63,382 nucleotides of DNA from NCBI GenBank assembly GCA_947258875.1, contig CAMYKB010000020.1, positions 1 to 63,382 on the forward strand, written 5' to 3'. Below are positions 1-11,981 of the stretch, one piece after another (position 1 is the first letter of the stretch; each line of letters opens with the position of its first letter). The notes under the pieces were generated by a model. It saw only the letters and a program-made list of their open reading frames with translations. It was not told where the DNA came from and did not search any database. A program made the translations under genes and the position numbers. This stretch comes from an uncultured Gammaproteobacteria bacterium. GTDB taxonomy: Bacteria; Pseudomonadota; Gammaproteobacteria; CAMYKB01.

Positions 1-1
1 C

Positions 2-3000
2 ACCGTGACGGTGGGCGATCCGGCCAGTACCGATGTGGCCTACGACGGCCTGACCGATGCCGACACCGCCGACGTCAGCGTGACCAACACCGACGACGAC
101 ACCGGTACAATAATTATTACTACGCCTGTTGCAGGTGATGGTGTTGTTAACGCTACTGAAGCGACGGCTGTTAGCGTGAGCGGTATTACAACAGGTGTGA
201 ATGCTGGTGAAACAGTGACATTAACCTTTACCGACGGTACAAGTACTGTAACGGTTACGACGACGGCTGCTGCTGATGGTAGTTGGACAGTATCCGGTGT
301 GGACATCAGCGCTCTTGCGGATGGTTCGGTAACCGTAACAGCGGAAACAGCAGATGCAGCAACTAATATTATAAATGATTCATCAAATGTGACCCTGGAT
401 ACGGCTGGTCCGGTTGTTGCTATCGACAATCTCGCGACTGCTGATAATACGCCGCAACTGACAGGAACCGTTGACGATCCGACGGCGACAGTGGTTGTCG
501 ACGTTGATGGCTTTAATTACATCGCGACGGTGAATCCGGATGGCACCTGGGTGGCGGATATCACCAATGTGCTGGCTGACGGAACTTACGATGTATCAGC
601 GACTGCCACAGATCCTGCTGGTAATGTAGGTACGGATACTTCAATTGACGAACTTATCGTCAATACGGCAGCGCCGGTGGTCACAGTTGATCCGTTGATC
701 ACCAGTGATCCTACGCCAACATTGACGGGCACCGTTGATGACCCGAGCGCGACCGTGGTGGTTACTGTCAATGGTGTCGATTACACCGCGACCGTTAATC
801 CGGATGGCACCTGGACCGTTGATGTCACCAATGCACTGTTGGATGGTAATTACGACGTAACGGCTAGCGCCACAAATCTGGCCGGTACAAGCGGCGTTGA
901 CAGCACCACCAACGAACTGGTGGTTGATACTGTTGCACCGATAGTCACGATTGATCCGCTGACGACGAGCGATACCACCCCGACATTAACGGGCACGGTT
1001 GATGACCCGAGTGCCACCGTGGTGGTGACCGTCAATGGCGTTGACTACATCGCGACGGTGAATCCGGATGGCACCTGGACAGTGGACATTACAGATGCGT
1101 TGGTGGATGGCACTTATGATGTGTCGGTCACCACAACCGATGCGGCTGGTAACGTGGGCACCGATACTTCCGTTGACGAGTTGGTAGTCAATACAGTGGT
1201 ACCGGTAGTGACCGTAGACAGCCTCACGACGAGCGATAATACGCCGACATTAACGGGTACGGTTGATGATCCGAATACGGTTGTGATCGTTACCGTCAAT
1301 GGTGTCGATTACACCGCGACGGTTAACCCGGACGGCACCTGGACCGTTGATGTCACTGATGCCTTGGTAGATGGCATATACAGCGTTACCGCGACCGCTA
1401 CAAATACAGCTGGAAACAGTGGCATCGATATCAGCGCTGATGAGCTGATTGTTGATACGGCTGCGCCGGTGGTTACGGTCGATCCGTTAGTAACAAGTGA
1501 CGGCAGCCCGCAACTGACCGGTACAGTAGATGATCCTGCGGCAACTGTGGTGGTCACCGTGAGTGGTGTCGATTACACCGCTGTAAATAATGGTGACGGC
1601 ACCTGGACGTTGGCTGATAACAGCATCAGCCCGGTCCTGGCTGATGGTACTTATCAGGTTGTGGCAACAGCGACTGATATTGCCGGTAATAGTGGTGTCG
1701 ATGCTACTACAGACGATTTGATTGTTGACACGACAGCGCCAGTGGTAACGATTGACCCGTTAACAACGAGCGATACTACACCGACATTGACCGGCACGGT
1801 CGATGATCCGAATGCGACCGTAATTGTTACCGTCAATGGTGTCGATTACACCGCGACGGTTAACCCGGACGGCACCTGGAGCATAGATGTTACAAATGCC
1901 CTGGTTGATGGCACATATGATGTGTCGGCGACCGCGACTGATGCGGCCGGCAATAGTAGTACGGATGCCTCCGCCGACGAATTGATCATTAACACTACCG
2001 GCAACATTGCAGGTAGTGTATTTGACGACATTGATCGCGATACCAACGTAGATGCCGGTGAGGCTTATGCCGGTGTCCCGGTGAGCCTGGTTGCTGCTGG
2101 CCCGGATGGTCTGTTCGGCACTGCTGACGACGTTGTGATTGCAACGACGAACACGGCTGCGGACGGCAGTTACAGCTTCAGCAATGTACCTGCCGGCCTG
2201 GTGCAGGTCCAGGTAACGGCGCCGACAGCTGCTGTAGAGGGTGGCAGTCGAGTCATCGATGTCGTCCCAAATCAGGCGTTTGTTGCTGATTTCCCATACA
2301 TTGACCCGGCAGGTGTGGTCTATGACTCGATTACCGGTGCACCCATAGCAGGCGCTACCGTGTCGATCTATCAGGACTTGAATAACAATGCTGTGCTCGA
2401 TAACGGCGAACCGCTGGCCTATGAAGAAGTCACGGGTGCCGATGGCAGCTACGCATGGTTGCTGGCTGGTGCGGCGAGTTATGTCATAGAAGTGACACCG
2501 CCAGTGAATTACAGCTTTGTCTCGACGCTGATCCCGCCGACTACGGCCCCAGATCCGTTGTCCGATACGCTGAATGATCTTAATGGCCAGGCGACGGCTA
2601 CGTATTACCTGGCGTTCCGCTTCGTGGCTACCAGCGGTGATCTTATTAACAACGACATTCCGCTGGATCCACCGGCAGTCGGAGCAGTGTTGCTGAGCAA
2701 GACCGCCAACAAGCGTGAAGCCTCCGTGGGTGACATGGTGCGTTATACCGTAACGGTAGAGAACACATCAACAGCAACACTTAACGGCGTCGAGCTAAGG
2801 GATACTGCGCCAGCCGGCTTTAAATACGCCGAGGGTTCTGTACGCCTGGCGCGTGCCGGTACCGATGGCTTGTTCGGTACAGCGGACGATGTTATCGATG
2901 ACACCGTAGGCGCCTCGGGCGTTCGGCCGGTGGTCTTTGGGCCGTTGTCGCTTGGTCCGGGTGAGACTGTCAAGCTCAGTTACATAGCGCGCATTGGTGC

Positions 3001-6000
3001 GGGTACTGGCAATGGTGATCGTGTTAACCGCGTAACACCATTCATAAGTAATGTTGAAGTGGGTAACACCGCGACCGCGACCGTAGAGGTGGTTGCCGAT
3101 CCGCTGCTGGGCAAGACCACAATCATCGGCAAGGTCTTTAATGATCGTGATGGCGATGGCTGGCAGGACAACGCTGATGCCAGCGGTATACATATACAAG
3201 GCGGCCTGGATGAGTCGATCTATATCCCCAACAGTACAACTGTCGATAGAGGTAATGGTCCGATTGCCGTGCCCGATCGCAGTTCGCCACTGGTGCGTGG
3301 TATCGATCTGGGTGAACTGACGGGGCGTCGCAACCTCGCGGACAGCCCACAGAACCATCGCCTAGTGATTCGTGCTGATGTTCGCGAAGCAGCCATGTCT
3401 GACCTCGTGCTGACCACAGCGCAAGGCGCACGTCTGATACTCGATGCCAATGGGCAAGTGCGCAGTGAGCATCATGGTGACATGGCGCGTGGCCTCACCG
3501 GACAGGATCTGGTTGTTGAGCGCAGCCTCGAATGGAATTCGCAGGGCTACACGCAGGTGATCACCATCACCAACTACGGCGTGCATGAGCAGGGTATTCC
3601 GGGTGTACGCTTGGCAACGGTTACCGGCCTGCTGATTGAGACCGATGCCCATGGCCGCTATCACCTGGCGGATGTCGACCCGGGGCGTGCAGAGCGTGGC
3701 CGTAATTTTATTCTCAAGGCCGATCCTGCAACTCTGCCGAAGGGTGCTGAGTTCACAACAGAGAATCCGCGCGTGATTCGCCTGAGTTCATCCTTAATGA
3801 ACAAGCTTAACTTCGGTGTGCGTCTGCCGGAGAAAATGGTGAGCGTGCGTCTCGATGACATGTTCTTCGGGATTGGCAAAGACACCCTTGAAGCTGTTAA
3901 CGGTGATGCGCTGAAGAAAATCAGTGCTGCGATCCGCAGCTACCGAGCGGCGCATATCAGAATTGAAGGCAGTGGTAACAGCAGTATGCGGGCAGTACAT
4001 CTGTACCGTGCTCTTGAAGATATTTTAGGTAAGGAAATGATGAAGCACGTCACAATCACACCGACGCCTGATTTCAGCCTGGAAATCGGTTCAGCGCCTC
4101 AGGTGTCAAGTAACTGGCGTGCCGGTTTGGGTCTTGCGCTAGGTTTGATGTTTGCTAGTGCGAATGCAGCAGATGATGCTCCGCTTGAAATGGTCTTGAA
4201 AGACTATACACGTAGTACTGCTTGTGCAGATCCAGTGTGCGACCAAGGTGTGGGCTACCAGATAGAAGTGATTGATCCGCAACAGCCGACGTCAGCCACG
4301 ATGTTGACCGGTGGGGTGTCTGCTGAGCTCAATAGTCGCGCCCAATTGCCCAATGGTGGCGTGGTCTGGATCACCGAAGATCCAGCGGTAATCGATCCGC
4401 GTCTCGATGTGACTGCAAGCGGTGACCTGGAATTGCTGGAAGGCGAGCGCAATGACCCCGTCCATTTCAGTCTTTATAGCAATTACAAAGCCTTCATCGA
4501 GCGCTGGGAATTACTCATTTATGAGGCCGATGATATCGATCTGGTGAAACCGGTAACCCGCCTGGTTGGTAACAGTGAACAGTTTGATGAGCGTATCGCC
4601 TGGGATGGTTATCTGCAGGTGGGTGGTCGGTTACGTACCGGTGATGACTTGCTTTATATTTTGCGGGTCTATGACAAAACCGGACGCATGGATGAAACCG
4701 CGCCTCGCGTGTTACACGTTGTCCGTGAATCGATTGACAATGCACGTTCGCCACAGCAGGGCAATACCGAAACCAGCAGAGCGGAACGTGAACTGGAACA
4801 ACGGCTGGAAATTCTTGGCCAGAATAACCTTGCCCGGCAGACCATACTGATCCGTGGCAGTCGTGTACGTCTATACGGCGCCGACCTTCCAGAGGGCACA
4901 AGTCTGGCGGTTAATACTAATACAGTGCCCGTGGATGTCGATGGCAAGTTTGTCGTTGAGGAATACCTGCCTGTTGGACGTCATATCTACACCCTCGAGC
5001 TCAAGAATGAGGAAAGCGGTTCAGTGATACAGCAACTCGCTGTAGACGTTTCGGGTAAATACATGTTTATGGTTGGCCTGGCCGACCTCACAGTAGGCGA
5101 GAATAACGTCAGTGGCAGTATCGAGCCCACTATCGATGACGAGCGTTTCGACGGTAGTGTGTTTGTCGATGGTCGTCTGGCGTTCTATCTGAAAGGCAAG
5201 ATCCAGGGTAAATACCTGATCACGGCGCAGATGGATACCGAAGAAGACGATATCGAAGACATCTTTAAGAATCTGCACAAGAAAGACCCACGCAGTGTGT
5301 TCCGCCGCCTGGATCCGGATCGCTTCTACCCGGTGTACGGCGATGACTCAACGGTTATTGATGATACCGACAGTCAAGGTAAGTTCTATGTGCGCGTTGA
5401 CTGGGACAAGTCGCAGGCCTTGTGGGGTAACTACAATACTAACGTGACCGGTAACGAGTTCAGTCAGTACAACCGGAGTTTGTATGGCGCGAAGTATCAG
5501 CATCGCGGCACTTCCTTGACCAGTTTTGGTGAACACCGTACTGAGCTCAATACCTTTGTATCTGAAGCTCAAAGCCTGCTGACGCATAATGAGTTTGCCG
5601 CCACCGGGGGTAGCCTGTATTACCTCAAGAACACCGACATCGTTCAGGGTTCGGAAAAAGTGCAGGTGGAAGTGCGTGAACGCGACACCTTGCGTGTAGT
5701 AGAGACGATTACGCTGGAGGCCGGGCGCGACTACGAAGTCGATGATTTGCAGGGTCGTATCATTCTTAGACGGCCCTTGACGCAGATCGCCCAGCAGGCT
5801 TCACCCTCTATTATTAAAGACACACCGTTGGACGGTAATGACGTTTTCCTGCTGGTCGATTATGAATATGTGCCCGACAACTTTGATGCGGATAATCTTA
5901 GCTATGGAGCGCGTGGCAAGGGCTGGGCTGGAGATCATCTCGCGGTTGGTGGTACTTATGTACATGAGAATCGTGATGGCGCAACCGATTATGAGTTACG

Positions 6001-7741
6001 CGGTGTAGATGTCACGGCACGGCTCAATAAGGGTACGTACGTTAAGGTGGAATATGCCGAGAGCGAGGCACGCCAGACTACCTCGGGTTTCGTCTCCACG
6101 GATGGTGGCTTGACCTTCGCTGAATTCAATCCGGCAGATAATCCGCTGAATACTGCGGGTATTACTGCTACCGAGGGTTCCGCCGTTGGTGTGGAAACCC
6201 GAGTCAATTTTGCTGAAGTCAGCGATGGACGTCAGCAGGGTACTGCGGCGGCCTGGTTTAAGGACCGTGAGGCCGGTTTCTCCAGTGCGCGCCTGGATAA
6301 CGGTACCGAGAGTACCGAGTACGGTGCTGAGGTGAGCTGGAAAACAAACGACGACTTAACCCTGTCGGCACGTGGCAGCGAGGTAGAGCAGATCACGGCG
6401 ACAGATACCCGAACTGAACAGGCCTATAGCATACAGGGCGATTACCGTATCGGCGATAAACTCAGTATGGGTGCCGAAGTACGTCATCTTAATACCGAAT
6501 CTCAGATTAATCCGCAAGAAGAAGCCACTTTGGGCGCAGTCAAGCTGGGCTATGACGTTAACCCGAATGTTAATGTCTATGGCATTGTACAAACAACCAT
6601 TGATAACAACGAGGCCTATGAAGATAACGATCTTTATACTTTAGGAACACAAGTGCGGGTCAGTGATACCCTGGCCCTGCGTGGTGAGCTCAGTACCGGT
6701 GATCGTGGTGACGCAGCCAATATTGGTGCTGATTACCGACTCAATGACCGCCACACGGTATATGGCACCTACACCTTGTCGCCGGATAACACCAACGGTA
6801 GCCGCGGAGTGGCTACGGTGGGTCAACGTGTTGGGCTTAGCAACCAGCTGAATGTTTATCATGAAAACCAGTTCACTGATGCCGACCGGCTAAATGGTGT
6901 TACCAACGTGTTTGGTCTTGATTATGCACTGAGCAAGCAATTGAGCGTGGGCGCATCCCTGCAGTCGAGCAACCTGGAAGATGATGTCTCTGGTGATGTA
7001 GAACGTGACGCGGCGACCGTTAGTGCAAATTATCGAGGTGACCGTAGCCGCGCCGGTGGTAAATTGGAGTATCGCCGCGACAAGTCTCCGCTACTGGAAA
7101 CCGAGCAGTGGTTGACGACCAATGATGTCAGCTACAAGGCGAGTGATGATTTTACGATGCTGGGTAAGCTCAGCCTCTCCGATACAGAAAACACTAACAC
7201 CGGTGATACGGATGCACGCTTTATCGAGGCGGGTGTGGGTGTTGCCTACCGGCCGGTCAACAACGACAGACTAAATCTGCTCGGTAAATACACTTATTTG
7301 TATGATCTGCCGAGCGCAGCGCAGGTGCCGCTGGATACCGACGAGCGCGCACAGGTGTTCTCGATCGAAAGTATCTATAGCATCAACCAATATTTCGACG
7401 TTGGCGGCAAGTTGGGTTACAAGCTCGGTGAAGTGCGCGCCGAACGTGCCAGCGGTGACTGGTTCCAGACAGAAACTACGCTCGCCACCCTGGGACTGCG
7501 TTACCATTTCATCAAGCGCTGGGATGCGCTGCTGGAATACCGCTGGTTGGGTGTTAGTGAGACCGATGATGATTTGCAGGGTGCGCTGGTGGGTGTCTAC
7601 CGCCACATCGGAGACAATCTTAAATTGGGTGTCGGATATAACTTCACCGAATTCAGTGACAACCTGGTGAATACCAGCGATCCGGCCAACCTCAGCTTTG
7701 ACAACAAGGGCTGGTTTGTAAACATCGTTGGTAAGTACTAG
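2..7741 (+). CDS. Giant Ig-repeat surface adhesin with C-terminal outer-membrane barrel (5' partial)
   Basis: The reading frame is already open at the left edge, so the N-terminus lies outside the window; at least 2578 residues are visible (numbering from base 5). Order seen: one Ig-like domain (to about residue 134), six 88-91-residue Ig-like repeats (135-665), an SdrD B-like domain (from about 666; pattern GSVFDDIDRDTNVDAGE), a second carboxypeptidase-like/SdrD fold (about 765), a DUF11-type repeat (about 890-1030), a third SdrD-like segment (about 1035), an OmpA-like segment (about 1278-1345), a signal-peptide-like hydrophobic stretch (1370-1388), and a strand-rich C-terminal half ending in GWFVNIVGKY, consistent with an outer-membrane beta-barrel whose last residue is aromatic. 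The likely role is adhesion or biofilm formation at the cell surface; that is inference from architecture. The gene converges on trmB. Confidence 0.85.
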   Translation, partial: TVTVGDPASTDVAYDGLTDADTADVSVTNTDDDTGTIIITTPVAGDGVVNATEATAVSVSGITTGVNAGETVTLTFTDGTSTVTVTTTAAADGSWTVSGVDISALADGSVTVTAETADAATNIINDSSNVTLDTAGPVVAIDNLATADNTPQLTGTVDDPTATVVVDVDGFNYIATVNPDGTWVADITNVLADGTYDVSATATDPAGNVGTDTSIDELIVNTAAPVVTVDPLITSDPTPTLTGTVDDPSATVVVTVNGVDYTATVNPDGTWTVDVTNALLDGNYDVTASATNLAGTSGVDSTTNELVVDTVAPIVTIDPLTTSDTTPTLTGTVDDPSATVVVTVNGVDYIATVNPDGTWTVDITDALVDGTYDVSVTTTDAAGNVGTDTSVDELVVNTVVPVVTVDSLTTSDNTPTLTGTVDDPNTVVIVTVNGVDYTATVNPDGTWTVDVTDALVDGIYSVTATATNTAGNSGIDISADELIVDTAAPVVTVDPLVTSDGSPQLTGTVDDPAATVVVTVSGVDYTAVNNGDGTWTLADNSISPVLADGTYQVVATATDIAGNSGVDATTDDLIVDTTAPVVTIDPLTTSDTTPTLTGTVDDPNATVIVTVNGVDYTATVNPDGTWSIDVTNALVDGTYDVSATATDAAGNSSTDASADELIINTTGNIAGSVFDDIDRDTNVDAGEAYAGVPVSLVAAGPDGLFGTADDVVIATTNTAADGSYSFSNVPAGLVQVQVTAPTAAVEGGSRVIDVVPNQAFVADFPYIDPAGVVYDSITGAPIAGATVSIYQDLNNNAVLDNGEPLAYEEVTGADGSYAWLLAGAASYVIEVTPPVNYSFVSTLIPPTTAPDPLSDTLNDLNGQATATYYLAFRFVATSGDLINNDIPLDPPAVGAVLLSKTANKREASVGDMVRYTVTVENTSTATLNGVELRDTAPAGFKYAEGSVRLARAGTDGLFGTADDVIDDTVGASGVRPVVFGPLSLGPGETVKLSYIARIGAGTGNGDRVNRVTPFISNVEVGNTATATVEVVADPLLGKTTIIGKVFNDRDGDGWQDNADASGIHIQGGLDESIYIPNSTTVDRGNGPIAVPDRSSPLVRGIDLGELTGRRNLADSPQNHRLVIRADVREAAMSDLVLTTAQGARLILDANGQVRSEHHGDMARGLTGQDLVVERSLEWNSQGYTQVITITNYGVHEQGIPGVRLATVTGLLIETDAHGRYHLADVDPGRAERGRNFILKADPATLPKGAEFTTENPRVIRLSSSLMNKLNFGVRLPEKMVSVRLDDMFFGIGKDTLEAVNGDALKKISAAIRSYRAAHIRIEGSGNSSMRAVHLYRALEDILGKEMMKHVTITPTPDFSLEIGSAPQVSSNWRAGLGLALGLMFASANAADDAPLEMVLKDYTRSTACADPVCDQGVGYQIEVIDPQQPTSATMLTGGVSAELNSRAQLPNGGVVWITEDPAVIDPRLDVTASGDLELLEGERNDPVHFSLYSNYKAFIERWELLIYEADDIDLVKPVTRLVGNSEQFDERIAWDGYLQVGGRLRTGDDLLYILRVYDKTGRMDETAPRVLHVVRESIDNARSPQQGNTETSRAERELEQRLEILGQNNLARQTILIRGSRVRLYGADLPEGTSLAVNTNTVPVDVDGKFVVEEYLPVGRHIYTLELKNEESGSVIQQLAVDVSGKYMFMVGLADLTVGENNVSGSIEPTIDDERFDGSVFVDGRLAFYLKGKIQGKYLITAQMDTEEDDIEDIFKNLHKKDPRSVFRRLDPDRFYPVYGDDSTVIDDTDSQGKFYVRVDWDKSQALWGNYNTNVTGNEFSQYNRSLYGAKYQHRGTSLTSFGEHRTELNTFVSEAQSLLTHNEFAATGGSLYYLKNTDIVQGSEKVQVEVRERDTLRVVETITLEAGRDYEVDDLQGRIILRRPLTQIAQQASPSIIKDTPLDGNDVFLLVDYEYVPDNFDADNLSYGARGKGWAGDHLAVGGTYVHENRDGATDYELRGVDVTARLNKGTYVKVEYAESEARQTTSGFVSTDGGLTFAEFNPADNPLNTAGITATEGSAVGVETRVNFAEVSDGRQQGTAAAWFKDREAGFSSARLDNGTESTEYGAEVSWKTNDDLTLSARGSEVEQITATDTRTEQAYSIQGDYRIGDKLSMGAEVRHLNTESQINPQEEATLGAVKLGYDVNPNVNVYGIVQTTIDNNEAYEDNDLYTLGTQVRVSDTLALRGELSTGDRGDAANIGADYRLNDRHTVYGTYTLSPDNTNGSRGVATVGQRVGLSNQLNVYHENQFTDADRLNGVTNVFGLDYALSKQLSVGASLQSSNLEDDVSGDVERDAATVSANYRGDRSRAGGKLEYRRDKSPLLETEQWLTTNDVSYKASDDFTMLGKLSLSDTENTNTGDTDARFIEAGVGVAYRPVNNDRLNLLGKYTYLYDLPSAAQVPLDTDERAQVFSIESIYSINQYFDVGGKLGYKLGEVRAERASGDWFQTETTLATLGLRYHFIKRWDALLEYRWLGVSETDDDLQGALVGVYRHIGDNLKLGVGYNFTEFSDNLVNTSDPANLSFDNKGWFVNIVGKY
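407..1999 (+). repeat. Six tandem 264-273 bp Ig-domain repeats
   Basis: Six consecutive units start at 407, 671, 935, 1199, 1463 and 1736. Five are 264 bp (88 codons) and the fifth is 273 bp (91 codons). Each encodes the pattern PxVTxDxLxTSDxxPxLTGTVDDP, an NPDGTW turn and a closing D(E)LIVxT. Units four and six share an uncorrected 55-bp identical stretch (1289-1343 and 1826-1880), which points to recent recombination between units. Confidence 0.9.
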
Positions 7742-9960: not shown

Positions 9961-10527
9961 CTAAAGACAAGTGAACCTCAAGATCTCTGCATGAGGTTCC
10001 GTTGGTGGTACGCCAAGACCCAGCACCCCGCTACCATTCAATGCCATCAAGTTATTACGTAGATAAAGACGTTCGTTTCGACTGGTGTGAATATAGGTGC
10101 CATTTTTGCTCAAGTCGCTCACGATTAGTTGTCCTTCAACGAATTCGAAGCGCAAATGGAGGCGCGACGTAAATGCACCGCTGAGTGTGAGGCTGGATTT
10201 CACGGCGCGGCCGATCTCAATCTGGCCTATGCCTGGGTCGAGGGTGACCGCGTCATTATCGTGTGTAAGCAGCAGGCTGGTTACAGCTGCTGCGACTGCA
10301 GTCCCCGGAGCTTGCTCGTAGTCTTGCTGATATTGTGGTGCCGGAAATGTATCGTGAGCGATGCTGTTTTGCCAGTCGACCTCTATTCCTTCTGCTTCGA
10401 TGCCTGGTACACGTCGGCGGTCTGTTTTTACTAAAACACCGTTACTGTCAATAAAAGGAAATGCCGGTGCCAGTTTACCGCTGCGCCTATCATGTCGTTT
10501 TCCTGAACCCATAGCGTCCTCATCCAT
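9961..10527 (-). CDS. FHA-domain protein (third of three paralogues)
   Basis: 188 residues. The C-terminal half is a forkhead-associated fold, which in other proteins binds phosphothreonine peptides: GQIEIGRAV, SRLHLRFEFVEGQLIV and DLSKNGTYI (the SxxH and NGT elements). The N-terminus carries the motif HDRRSG..PAFPFIDSNGVLV..DRRR, shared with the two upstream paralogues. No signal peptide or membrane segment is visible, so it is probably cytoplasmic. It is the last gene of the minus-strand trio. Its specific role is unknown, and no kinase or phosphatase gene is adjacent. An inverted repeat sits just before the start codon. Confidence 0.85.
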   Translation of the reverse strand: MDEDAMGSGKRHDRRSGKLAPAFPFIDSNGVLVKTDRRRVPGIEAEGIEVDWQNSIAHDTFPAPQYQQDYEQAPGTAVAAAVTSLLLTHDNDAVTLDPGIGQIEIGRAVKSSLTLSGAFTSRLHLRFEFVEGQLIVSDLSKNGTYIHTSRNERLYLRNNLMALNGSGVLGLGVPPTEPHAEILRFTCL

Positions 10528-10528
10528 T

Positions 10529-10546
10529 GCGTATTCAATAATACGC
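10529..10546. promoter_or_regulatory. Inverted repeat at the start of the third FHA gene
   Basis: GCGTATT-CAAT-AATACGC is a perfect 7-bp inverted repeat with a 4-base loop, lying directly upstream of the minus-strand start codon at 10527. It could be an operator or an mRNA hairpin over the translation start. No further evidence is available from sequence. Confidence 0.35.
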
Positions 10547-10645
10547 GTATTTTGGGTTTACCTTCTATCAACCGCGCGAGTTATTTGCTCCGAATAATAA
10601 ATTTATGTGAAGCTTGGACTGGTTTGTAGGATGTTAAAATGGGTT

Positions 10646-11173
10646 TCATTTGCAAGAAAACTGAATGGTTTCTCCTTGCTGTTCCGGATCTGCAGCACCG
10701 AGAGACAGTGTGCCGCGGTCATGCAGGTTATATCGGTTATTGATTAAGTGTATTCGCGGTTGCCCCTGTATGGAGATAAAAGTACCGTTGCGACTCTGGT
10801 CGATAATAACTGGCGCATCATCAATGAATTCAATGCGCGCATGCGTGCGTGAAACATAGATATTGTTAAAAAAGAAATCGACACCAGACATGCGGCCAAT
10901 GACTTTAGGGCAGTTTTCTTTCGTGAGCGTATAGAACTGGTTGTGGATATTCAGTATTAACGTGTGTGCTATTTTCGGTGATGTATTGAATGCGTCGGCA
11001 GTCTTTTCGATGTGTATATCGCCGGGAGGCGTAGGGTGAGCCATAGTCTCGAGCTGTTCATTTGATTGGCTGCTGCGACGGTCCTTACGCACCAAGTTGT
11101 TGTCGCTATCAAAGAAGGGAAAATGCGGCGGCGGTCCGCCGAGGCGTCGCTCATGCTTATTGTCTGTGTCCAT
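10646..11173 (-). CDS. FHA-domain protein (second of three paralogues)
   Basis: 175 residues from the ATG at 11173, chosen because the other paralogues also begin a few residues before the (H)xRR motif; the frame stays open upstream to 11233. The N-terminal motif is KHERRLGGPPPHFPFFDS with a following LVRKDRR. The C-terminal FHA fold shows IGRMSGVDFFFNN, SRTHARIEFID and DQSRNGTFI. It resembles the flanking genes in design but is diverged in the linker, so the duplication is not recent. Function is unknown beyond presumed phosphopeptide binding. Confidence 0.82.
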   Translation of the reverse strand: MDTDNKHERRLGGPPPHFPFFDSDNNLVRKDRRSSQSNEQLETMAHPTPPGDIHIEKTADAFNTSPKIAHTLILNIHNQFYTLTKENCPKVIGRMSGVDFFFNNIYVSRTHARIEFIDDAPVIIDQSRNGTFISIQGQPRIHLINNRYNLHDRGTLSLGAADPEQQGETIQFSCK

Positions 11174-11384
11174 GGCTAGTGCTGCTTGCTGCTCCGAGGG
11201 TTTAATTATTGACGTGAATCGGGAACGCAGCAATCGAGCGGCGTGATGGGCATCACAAAAACCCAGGCTGGTTGGTGGCGCGCAAAGTTTTTGAAATTTA
11301 AGACCTGACGCTGCGGGATAAAAGAGTATGCGAGCCAGAACGCTGTGACAGGCGATCCTAAGATGATAGTTGCGAAGTGGTTTG

Positions 11385-11936
11385 CTACAGACACGTGAAC
11401 TGGATGGTATCGGCGCGCGGGTCAGCAGGCGGCAGTCCGAAACCCAGCATACCGCTTCCGCTTAATGGCATTTTGCGTTTGGACAGATACAAGTATCGGT
11501 TGTCGTCGGTGAGTATATAGGTGCCATTCTTGCTCACGTCCGTGAGCATGGGTTGTCCATCGACAAACTCAATACGCAAGTGAACGCGTGAGGCATAGGT
11601 GGTACCAAGTCTGATGTCGGCACTGTGGGTACGCCCGAGTAACATGGGGCCTCCGTCTTCCGTCAGGTTGATGACGGTGTTCTTGTGGTTGAGCAGCAGA
11701 CGGTTTACAGACGAACCCTGGTCAGCTATGTCCGGAGGGCTGTGGTCCAGACCTGGTTGCTCGCCCACCAGCGTTTCCAGTTCCTGAGAGTGTTTCCAGG
11801 ATACCTCGATACCACTAACCCGGCGATCAGGGGCGCGGCGGCGATCCTCCCGGACCAGGATATTGCTACTGTCGAAGAACGGGTAACCAGGGGGTGGGCC
11901 CCACCTGCGCCGATCGTGTGCGCTTCGCATCTGCAT
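11385..11936 (-). CDS. FHA-domain protein (first of three paralogues)
   Basis: 183 residues from the ATG at 11936 (a second ATG follows at 11930; the frame opens with TTG at 11942). N-terminal motif: HDRRRWGPPPGYPFFDS, then LVREDRRRAPDRRVSGIEV-type basic segment. FHA elements: LLGRTHSADIRLG, SRVHLRIEFVDGQ and DVSKNGTYI. It is closest to the third paralogue (shared SGIEV/EGIEV and the ending LGFGLPP..IQFTCL). The gene lies 45 bases downstream of the EEP-family gene on the same strand, which could place both in one transcript. Confidence 0.85.
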   Translation of the reverse strand: MQMRSAHDRRRWGPPPGYPFFDSSNILVREDRRRAPDRRVSGIEVSWKHSQELETLVGEQPGLDHSPPDIADQGSSVNRLLLNHKNTVINLTEDGGPMLLGRTHSADIRLGTTYASRVHLRIEFVDGQPMLTDVSKNGTYILTDDNRYLYLSKRKMPLSGSGMLGFGLPPADPRADTIQFTCL

Positions 11937-11981
11937 TACCAAGATAATAGTCTATTAAGTGACCAGAGTGCTATTTTCTGC

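Follow-up and report, generated by a model that had tools for sequence, protein, structure and literature searches.

The window, by which we mean the entire analyzed stretch of 63,382 nucleotides, is the whole of contig C20 from the 3.01-Mb genome of an uncultured gammaproteobacterium (67 contigs, 98.5% complete). Its first gene is a long open reading frame that joins an adhesin-like half to a half dominated by a predicted outer-membrane beta-barrel (Table 1). The contig breaks inside this adhesin-barrel gene (window 1-5), so that the N-terminus of the protein and its export signal lie beyond the contig, and similar Ig repeats upstream are probably the cause of the break. Downstream, at about 9961-11942 on the minus strand, three similar tandem proteins of 185-195 aa each carry an FHA-like end (R-x-HLRIEFV...D-x-SKNGT).

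Table 1. Features of the adhesin-barrel reading frame (nucleotide positions in the window; aa, residues of the open frame).
Feature	Position	Strand	Evidence or remark
Single open reading frame, 2,579 codons plus stop	2..7741	+	5' end missing at contig edge
Ig-like repeats (Big_13 / Ca2+-stabilised adhesin repeat), approximate extent	449..1981	+	Pfam PF19077 E 1.6e-66; NF033510 E 3e-85
SdrD_B-like and carboxypeptidase-regulatory-like domains (aa 669-743, 771-834)	2006..2503	+	Both weak, under Pfam gathering score
Degenerate OmpA-like domain, end of N-terminal half (aa about 1279-1354)	3836..4063	+	Alignment to relatives; modelled alpha/beta domain, pLDDT about 60-80
In-frame GTG (V1368), 22 codons ahead of predicted cut	4103..4105	+	May be left over from an earlier start codon; Shine-Dalgarno match poor
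Internal signal-peptide-like segment NWRAGLGLALGLMFASANA (aa 1371-1389), then ADD	4112..4168	+	Counterparts in alignment: split homologues' signal peptides, and the segments kept by the seven other fused proteins
A-N-A (aa 1387-1389), -3 and -1 of predicted signal peptidase I site	4160..4168	+	Predicted cut between nt 4168 and 4169, A1389/A1390
C-terminal half (1,190 aa), disordered at its start, followed by beta-rich domains and a very large predicted outer-membrane beta-barrel	4169..7738	+	AlphaFold2 mean pLDDT 75.9, pTM 0.72; OMP_b-brl PF13505 E 1.6e-10
C-x4-C pair (C1408, C1413) just past predicted cut	4223..4240	+	Alignment C179 and C184, invariant in fused proteins
Barrel part (aa about 1650-2579), roughly 40 predicted strands	4949..7738	+	Our count of the AlphaFold2 strands listed

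The OmpA-like domain that closes the N-terminal half had no match to PF00691 in our Pfam search, and the original prediction of such a segment stands as homology rather than as a recognizable family member. The aligned domains of relatives do match PF00691 (L021, E 1e-12; L129, 2e-6; L028, 1e-8), and by this alignment the window's domain is a homologue of the OmpA domains of its close relatives that has decayed below Pfam detection. The GHTD and N-x-x-L-x-x-x-RA-type motifs present in relatives such as L021 are absent from it. Because these motifs are missing and Pfam does not detect the domain, its capacity to bind peptidoglycan has probably been lost.

With its predicted strand number, the barrel of the C-terminal half would exceed common outer-membrane barrels in size. 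Structure searches with the barrel returned generic barrels (SprA, TonB-dependent receptors, LptD, and SlpA) at query-normalised TM-scores of <=0.22 among the matches listed, with no close structural relative among them and no functional assignment, and a PDB sequence search with the barrel alignment found nothing. A further match was seen in the same genome, where a stand-alone frame of 507 codons (L015, contig C29:5472-6773, minus strand) resembles only the last ~440 residues of the barrel, at 31% identity. L015 has a signal-peptide-like start (SPFIFSCLLLVLAYPYPSYA, then SVG), as does the next frame after it.

We took a comparative genomic approach to the junction between the halves, using the best 80 matches to the barrel half among 84,980 species genomes and reading the architecture at each locus. 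Ten loci were fused (L061 being counted here because an OmpA-domain tail lies upstream in the same frame), 64 were split, and six were left unclassed because the locus was incomplete or no adhesin half was seen. At the 64 split loci, the adhesin and barrel halves are two adjacent genes on the same strand, divided at the junction found in the window, and the barrel gene opens with its own signal peptide at the place of the window's segment. The stop and start codons overlap by four bases (of the ATGA or GTGA kind) in 39 of these 64 loci. L011, the split case found first, overlaps by ATGA and carries MTLCWKPIVRLGMATLTLGTALTLPVMA (then DE) as its signal peptide; another example is L031 (MKMKLLDYTLIGILAGFAANATA, then QDA). 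Six split pairs share a frame, some with just a stop codon and a few bases between the genes. Cysteine pairs similar to the C-x4-C motif occur at the corresponding place in many split proteins. Searching the class and phylum to which the window belongs turned up more split pairs of genes, some from other classes of that phylum; a search within the window's own order found no relatives. One deep lineage carries OmpA domains within the barrel gene itself, after its signal peptide.

These comparisons make it almost certain that the window frame unites, in frame, two genes that are neighboring and translationally coupled in most relatives. By homology, the first of these encodes a surface protein with Ig repeats that closes with an OmpA-like domain, and the second a putative Sec-exported outer-membrane barrel. 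The original prediction that two exported proteins had been joined in frame is thus supported, and its proposed search for homologues with separate halves was clearly positive. An uninterrupted architecture in all homologues, with a conserved beta-strand at this position, is excluded as far as architecture is concerned. The low-confidence structural model of the junction shows a linker rather than a strand there. This linker is long and disordered, with the hydrophobic core covered by a short helix, and it connects the OmpA-like domain to the first beta domain of the C-terminal half; a structure search with this model gave no significant match.

The segment at the junction has small residues at -3 and -1 (A1387 and A1389) and a hydrophobic core, as signal peptidase I sites do. 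Unlike Sec signal peptides, it is not N-terminal: it begins at codon 1371 of an open frame with no conserved internal start. We ranked each A-x-A site by the most hydrophobic 10-residue window preceding it (Kyte-Doolittle), and the segment's site came first of 23 in the 2,579-aa frame, with a best mean of 2.27. As a control, only 8 of 2,553 A-x-A sites were as good in 180,285 aa of non-N-terminal sequence from split homologues, a rate that gives a chance expectation of about 0.1 equally good site per 2,579 aa. Other measures were less discriminating. By plain 15-residue hydrophobicity the segment was second best in the protein, other strands being about as hydrophobic, and over 15 residues its core falls below that of most split genes (1.44-1.59, according to the window permitted, vs. 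a split-gene median of 1.8 and range of 1.35-2.67). A position-specific signal-peptide profile trained on homologues placed the segment first in the protein, with 229 of 180,925 control positions scoring as high. The hydrophobicity-only scan and the homologue-trained profile are unspecific by themselves; we therefore rested the argument on positional homology and the test conditioned on A-x-A, and it is the positional homology, not a score, that is decisive. The hydrophobic core and A-x-A site of the original prediction are confirmed in sequence and place, with the residue numbering shifted by one, while its basic start comes down to a single Arg. Net charge in this region ranges from clearly positive to negative among the fused proteins.

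Retention of the site could be followed in the fused relatives. A signal-peptide-like segment persists at the junction in six of the ten fused loci: L021 (LLAGLVDMLVPVAHA, then EE), L023 (AVAALSEFLIPSACA, then EE), L047 (GALLGLVIGTAQA, then DG), L061 (ATLLGLLVNDAHA, then QQ), L098 (DVVLGLLVPAAYA, then DE), and L099 (DLAIQWLIPTAQA, then EC). With the window and a homologue from another genome (L101/L129; LGGLLLSAVVGTAHA, then AS), this gives eight fused proteins with an internal segment. The frame of that homologue (L128/L129, genome G112, contig C2) is, at 11,777 codons, very long for a bacterium, and its internal segment lies near the C-terminal barrel. No segment was seen at the junction of the fused proteins L022, L034, L042, and L052, nor in L131, L136, and L152 from the genome searches. 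Among the fused proteins we thus recognized either a good site or no trace of one, and no half-decayed intermediates.

In the alignment of the eight proteins (28-39% identical to the window's), the alanines at -3 and -1 are present in all eight and are the only invariant residues over the roughly 70 positions from the OmpA-like domain to the C-x4-C pair, while positions -22 to -4 share only 1-7 of 19 residues per pair. The internal site ranked first among A-x-A sites in seven of the eight proteins and second in L099, where the protein's own N-terminal signal peptide (SWSVLANA, then LT) ranked first, giving two signal peptides in one frame. The sister pairs L047/L061 and L098/L099 (support 100) are each identical at 6 of 19 positions outside A-x-A and keep both alanines. 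At the turnover of their neighbors, the chance of both alanines surviving in the two pairs would be about (6/19)^4 = 0.01, and about 4e-4 if the pair L021/L129 (4/19, support 84) is added, a rough estimate that assumes each sister pair inherited its fusion.

The fused proteins do not form one clade. In a quick tree of the barrel halves, with an arbitrary root, the fused proteins that keep the segment fall on several deep branches, and their grouping as one clade was rejected (p-AU 1.8e-5), as was a single clade of all fused proteins (p-AU 1.7e-5). Either fusion recurred or an old fusion was later re-split. A fused lineage without the signal peptide (L022, L103, L042, L052) adjoins the window in this tree.

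Our best explanation, and in our judgment a fairly probable one, is a fused gene in which the segment has been kept as a signal peptidase I site, with a predicted cut between A1389 and A1390. It is preferred over alternatives that need a separate start because internal start codons are not conserved, and cleavage by signal peptidase I, in line with the original suggestion of a second cleavage site, is favored by the two-gene counterparts, the A-x-A retained in divergent fused proteins, and the disordered linker. In this scheme the signal peptide of the second protein would persist as an internal site. Sec would export the fused chain, and LepB would meet the internal hydrophobic segment on the periplasmic side of the inner membrane. 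A cut at A1389/A1390 would release a 1,190-residue barrel protein with the new N-terminus ADDAPLEM to BAM and would leave the adhesin half with a short hydrophobic tail. The cleavage, the protease, and the fate of the halves are what we infer from these comparisons; the genome itself encodes two S26 signal peptidases.

The topology of this scheme is awkward. The upstream chain would presumably already be periplasmic when the segment arrives, the opposite of the normal N-in orientation, and no stop-transfer segment was seen upstream, so that the segment would meet the enzyme the wrong way round unless it re-engaged the translocon. We know of no description of such a processing topology for signal peptidase I substrates. 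More tentatively still, and with rather less confidence than in the retained site, we suggest an outer-membrane polyprotein: signal peptidase I would cut after a long upstream chain has crossed the inner membrane, yielding adhesin and barrel as a 1:1 pair in which the former signal peptide becomes a membrane tail at the C-terminus of the adhesin, an arrangement that may have been used repeatedly as fusions arose.

The same awkward topology speaks for a second explanation, in which the fusion is real and the segment is a relic that passes SecYEG uncut, leaving adhesin and barrel in one chain with a hydrophobic stretch in its linker. Fused relatives lacking the signal peptide exist, and the window segment's hydrophobicity is at the low end. 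Since a signal-free fused lineage lies next to the window, the one-chain form must be viable and cutting cannot be obligatory for all members; if the fusions were recent and independent, retention of the segment could be mere inheritance. Against this, the site alanines are kept in all eight proteins despite the turnover around them, and the segment is found intact or gone rather than half decayed. We consider the relic unlikely.

Less likely again is internal initiation, at the GTG at 4103 or the ATG at 4037/4040, by which the barrel would also be made separately as a gene within a gene and the segment would be its ordinary N-terminal signal peptide. The split relatives do start here, often with GTG, and candidate starts can be named in the window (GTG at -22), in L129 (ATG at -18/-19), and in L061, where an ATG at -41 has a 5/6 Shine-Dalgarno match. 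The window's GTG, however, has only a 2/6 match, and starts are not conserved among the eight proteins: the nearest in L098 is a GTG at -32, in L061 the ATG at -41, and in L021 only a TTG at -15. We rejected internal initiation as a general explanation on this ground.

We give very little credence to an artefact of assembly or sequencing, in which a missed stop codon or frame change joined two genes. The contig is broken inside this very gene, and some of the same-frame split pairs described above are only a stop codon away from fusion, but frames fused around an equivalent internal segment are present in seven further assemblies, stops interrupt the alternative frames near the junction, and homologous residues stay in one frame up to the linker. 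Least credible of all is a chance hydrophobic stretch or adhesin beta-strand with no signal-peptide history: other strands of the protein are about as hydrophobic, but this reading is contradicted by the segment's position, where 64 homologous gene pairs have their split point and signal peptide, and by its predicted helical or disordered state.

A signal peptidase I site retained within a fused chain thus remains our favored reading, and the relatives provide a natural series for examining it, with the two proteins encoded by coupled genes, by fusions that retain the signal peptide, and by fusions without it. Such a series allows tests of whether signal peptidase I can act internally on a chain that Sec is already translocating, and of whether it makes a difference that adhesin and barrel are covalently linked or separate. 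Gene coupling and repeated fusion together suggest that the adhesin and barrel act together. By this fusion logic, a widespread pair, a giant Ig/DUF11 protein and a very large barrel for which we found no functional description, is linked as likely partners.

We searched the open literature for internal signal peptides in bacterial polyproteins and found none described. The Bradyrhizobium FbcH cytochrome b/c1 polyprotein is encoded by one gene and gives two proteins, the internal signal peptide of the second being cut after translation. The window resembles FbcH in placing two proteins, encoded by separate genes in relatives, in one frame with the internal signal peptide of the second. In FbcH, however, the first part is a protein of the inner membrane, so that the internal signal peptide can take up its normal N-in orientation, whereas the first part here is a soluble exported giant protein whose chain would already be outside; the families also differ, and the cut here is predicted.

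Among secretion systems, the frame shares with classical autotransporters (type Va) an N-terminal passenger and a C-terminal barrel in one chain. There was no match to the 12-stranded autotransporter barrel (PF03797), either in the whole protein (E <= 1) or in the C-terminal half alone (E <= 0.1); the predicted barrel is several times larger than that of type Va, and passenger and barrel are separated by an internal signal peptide. Two-partner secretion (type Vb) is similar in outline, with a large exported protein and a cognate outer-membrane barrel encoded next door. No POTRA, ShlB/FhaC-type transporter, or TPS (haemagglutination-activity) domain was matched, the adhesin N-terminus, where a TPS domain would lie, being outside the contig. 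Also close in layout are the coupled gene pairs of Lysobacter, Stenotrophomonas, Pseudoxanthomonas, Kangiella, and others, in which an Ig/DUF11/OmpA-like protein and a large barrel are encoded in the same order, with the signal peptide at the same place; those are two genes with a stop and a start between them, whereas the window holds one frame.
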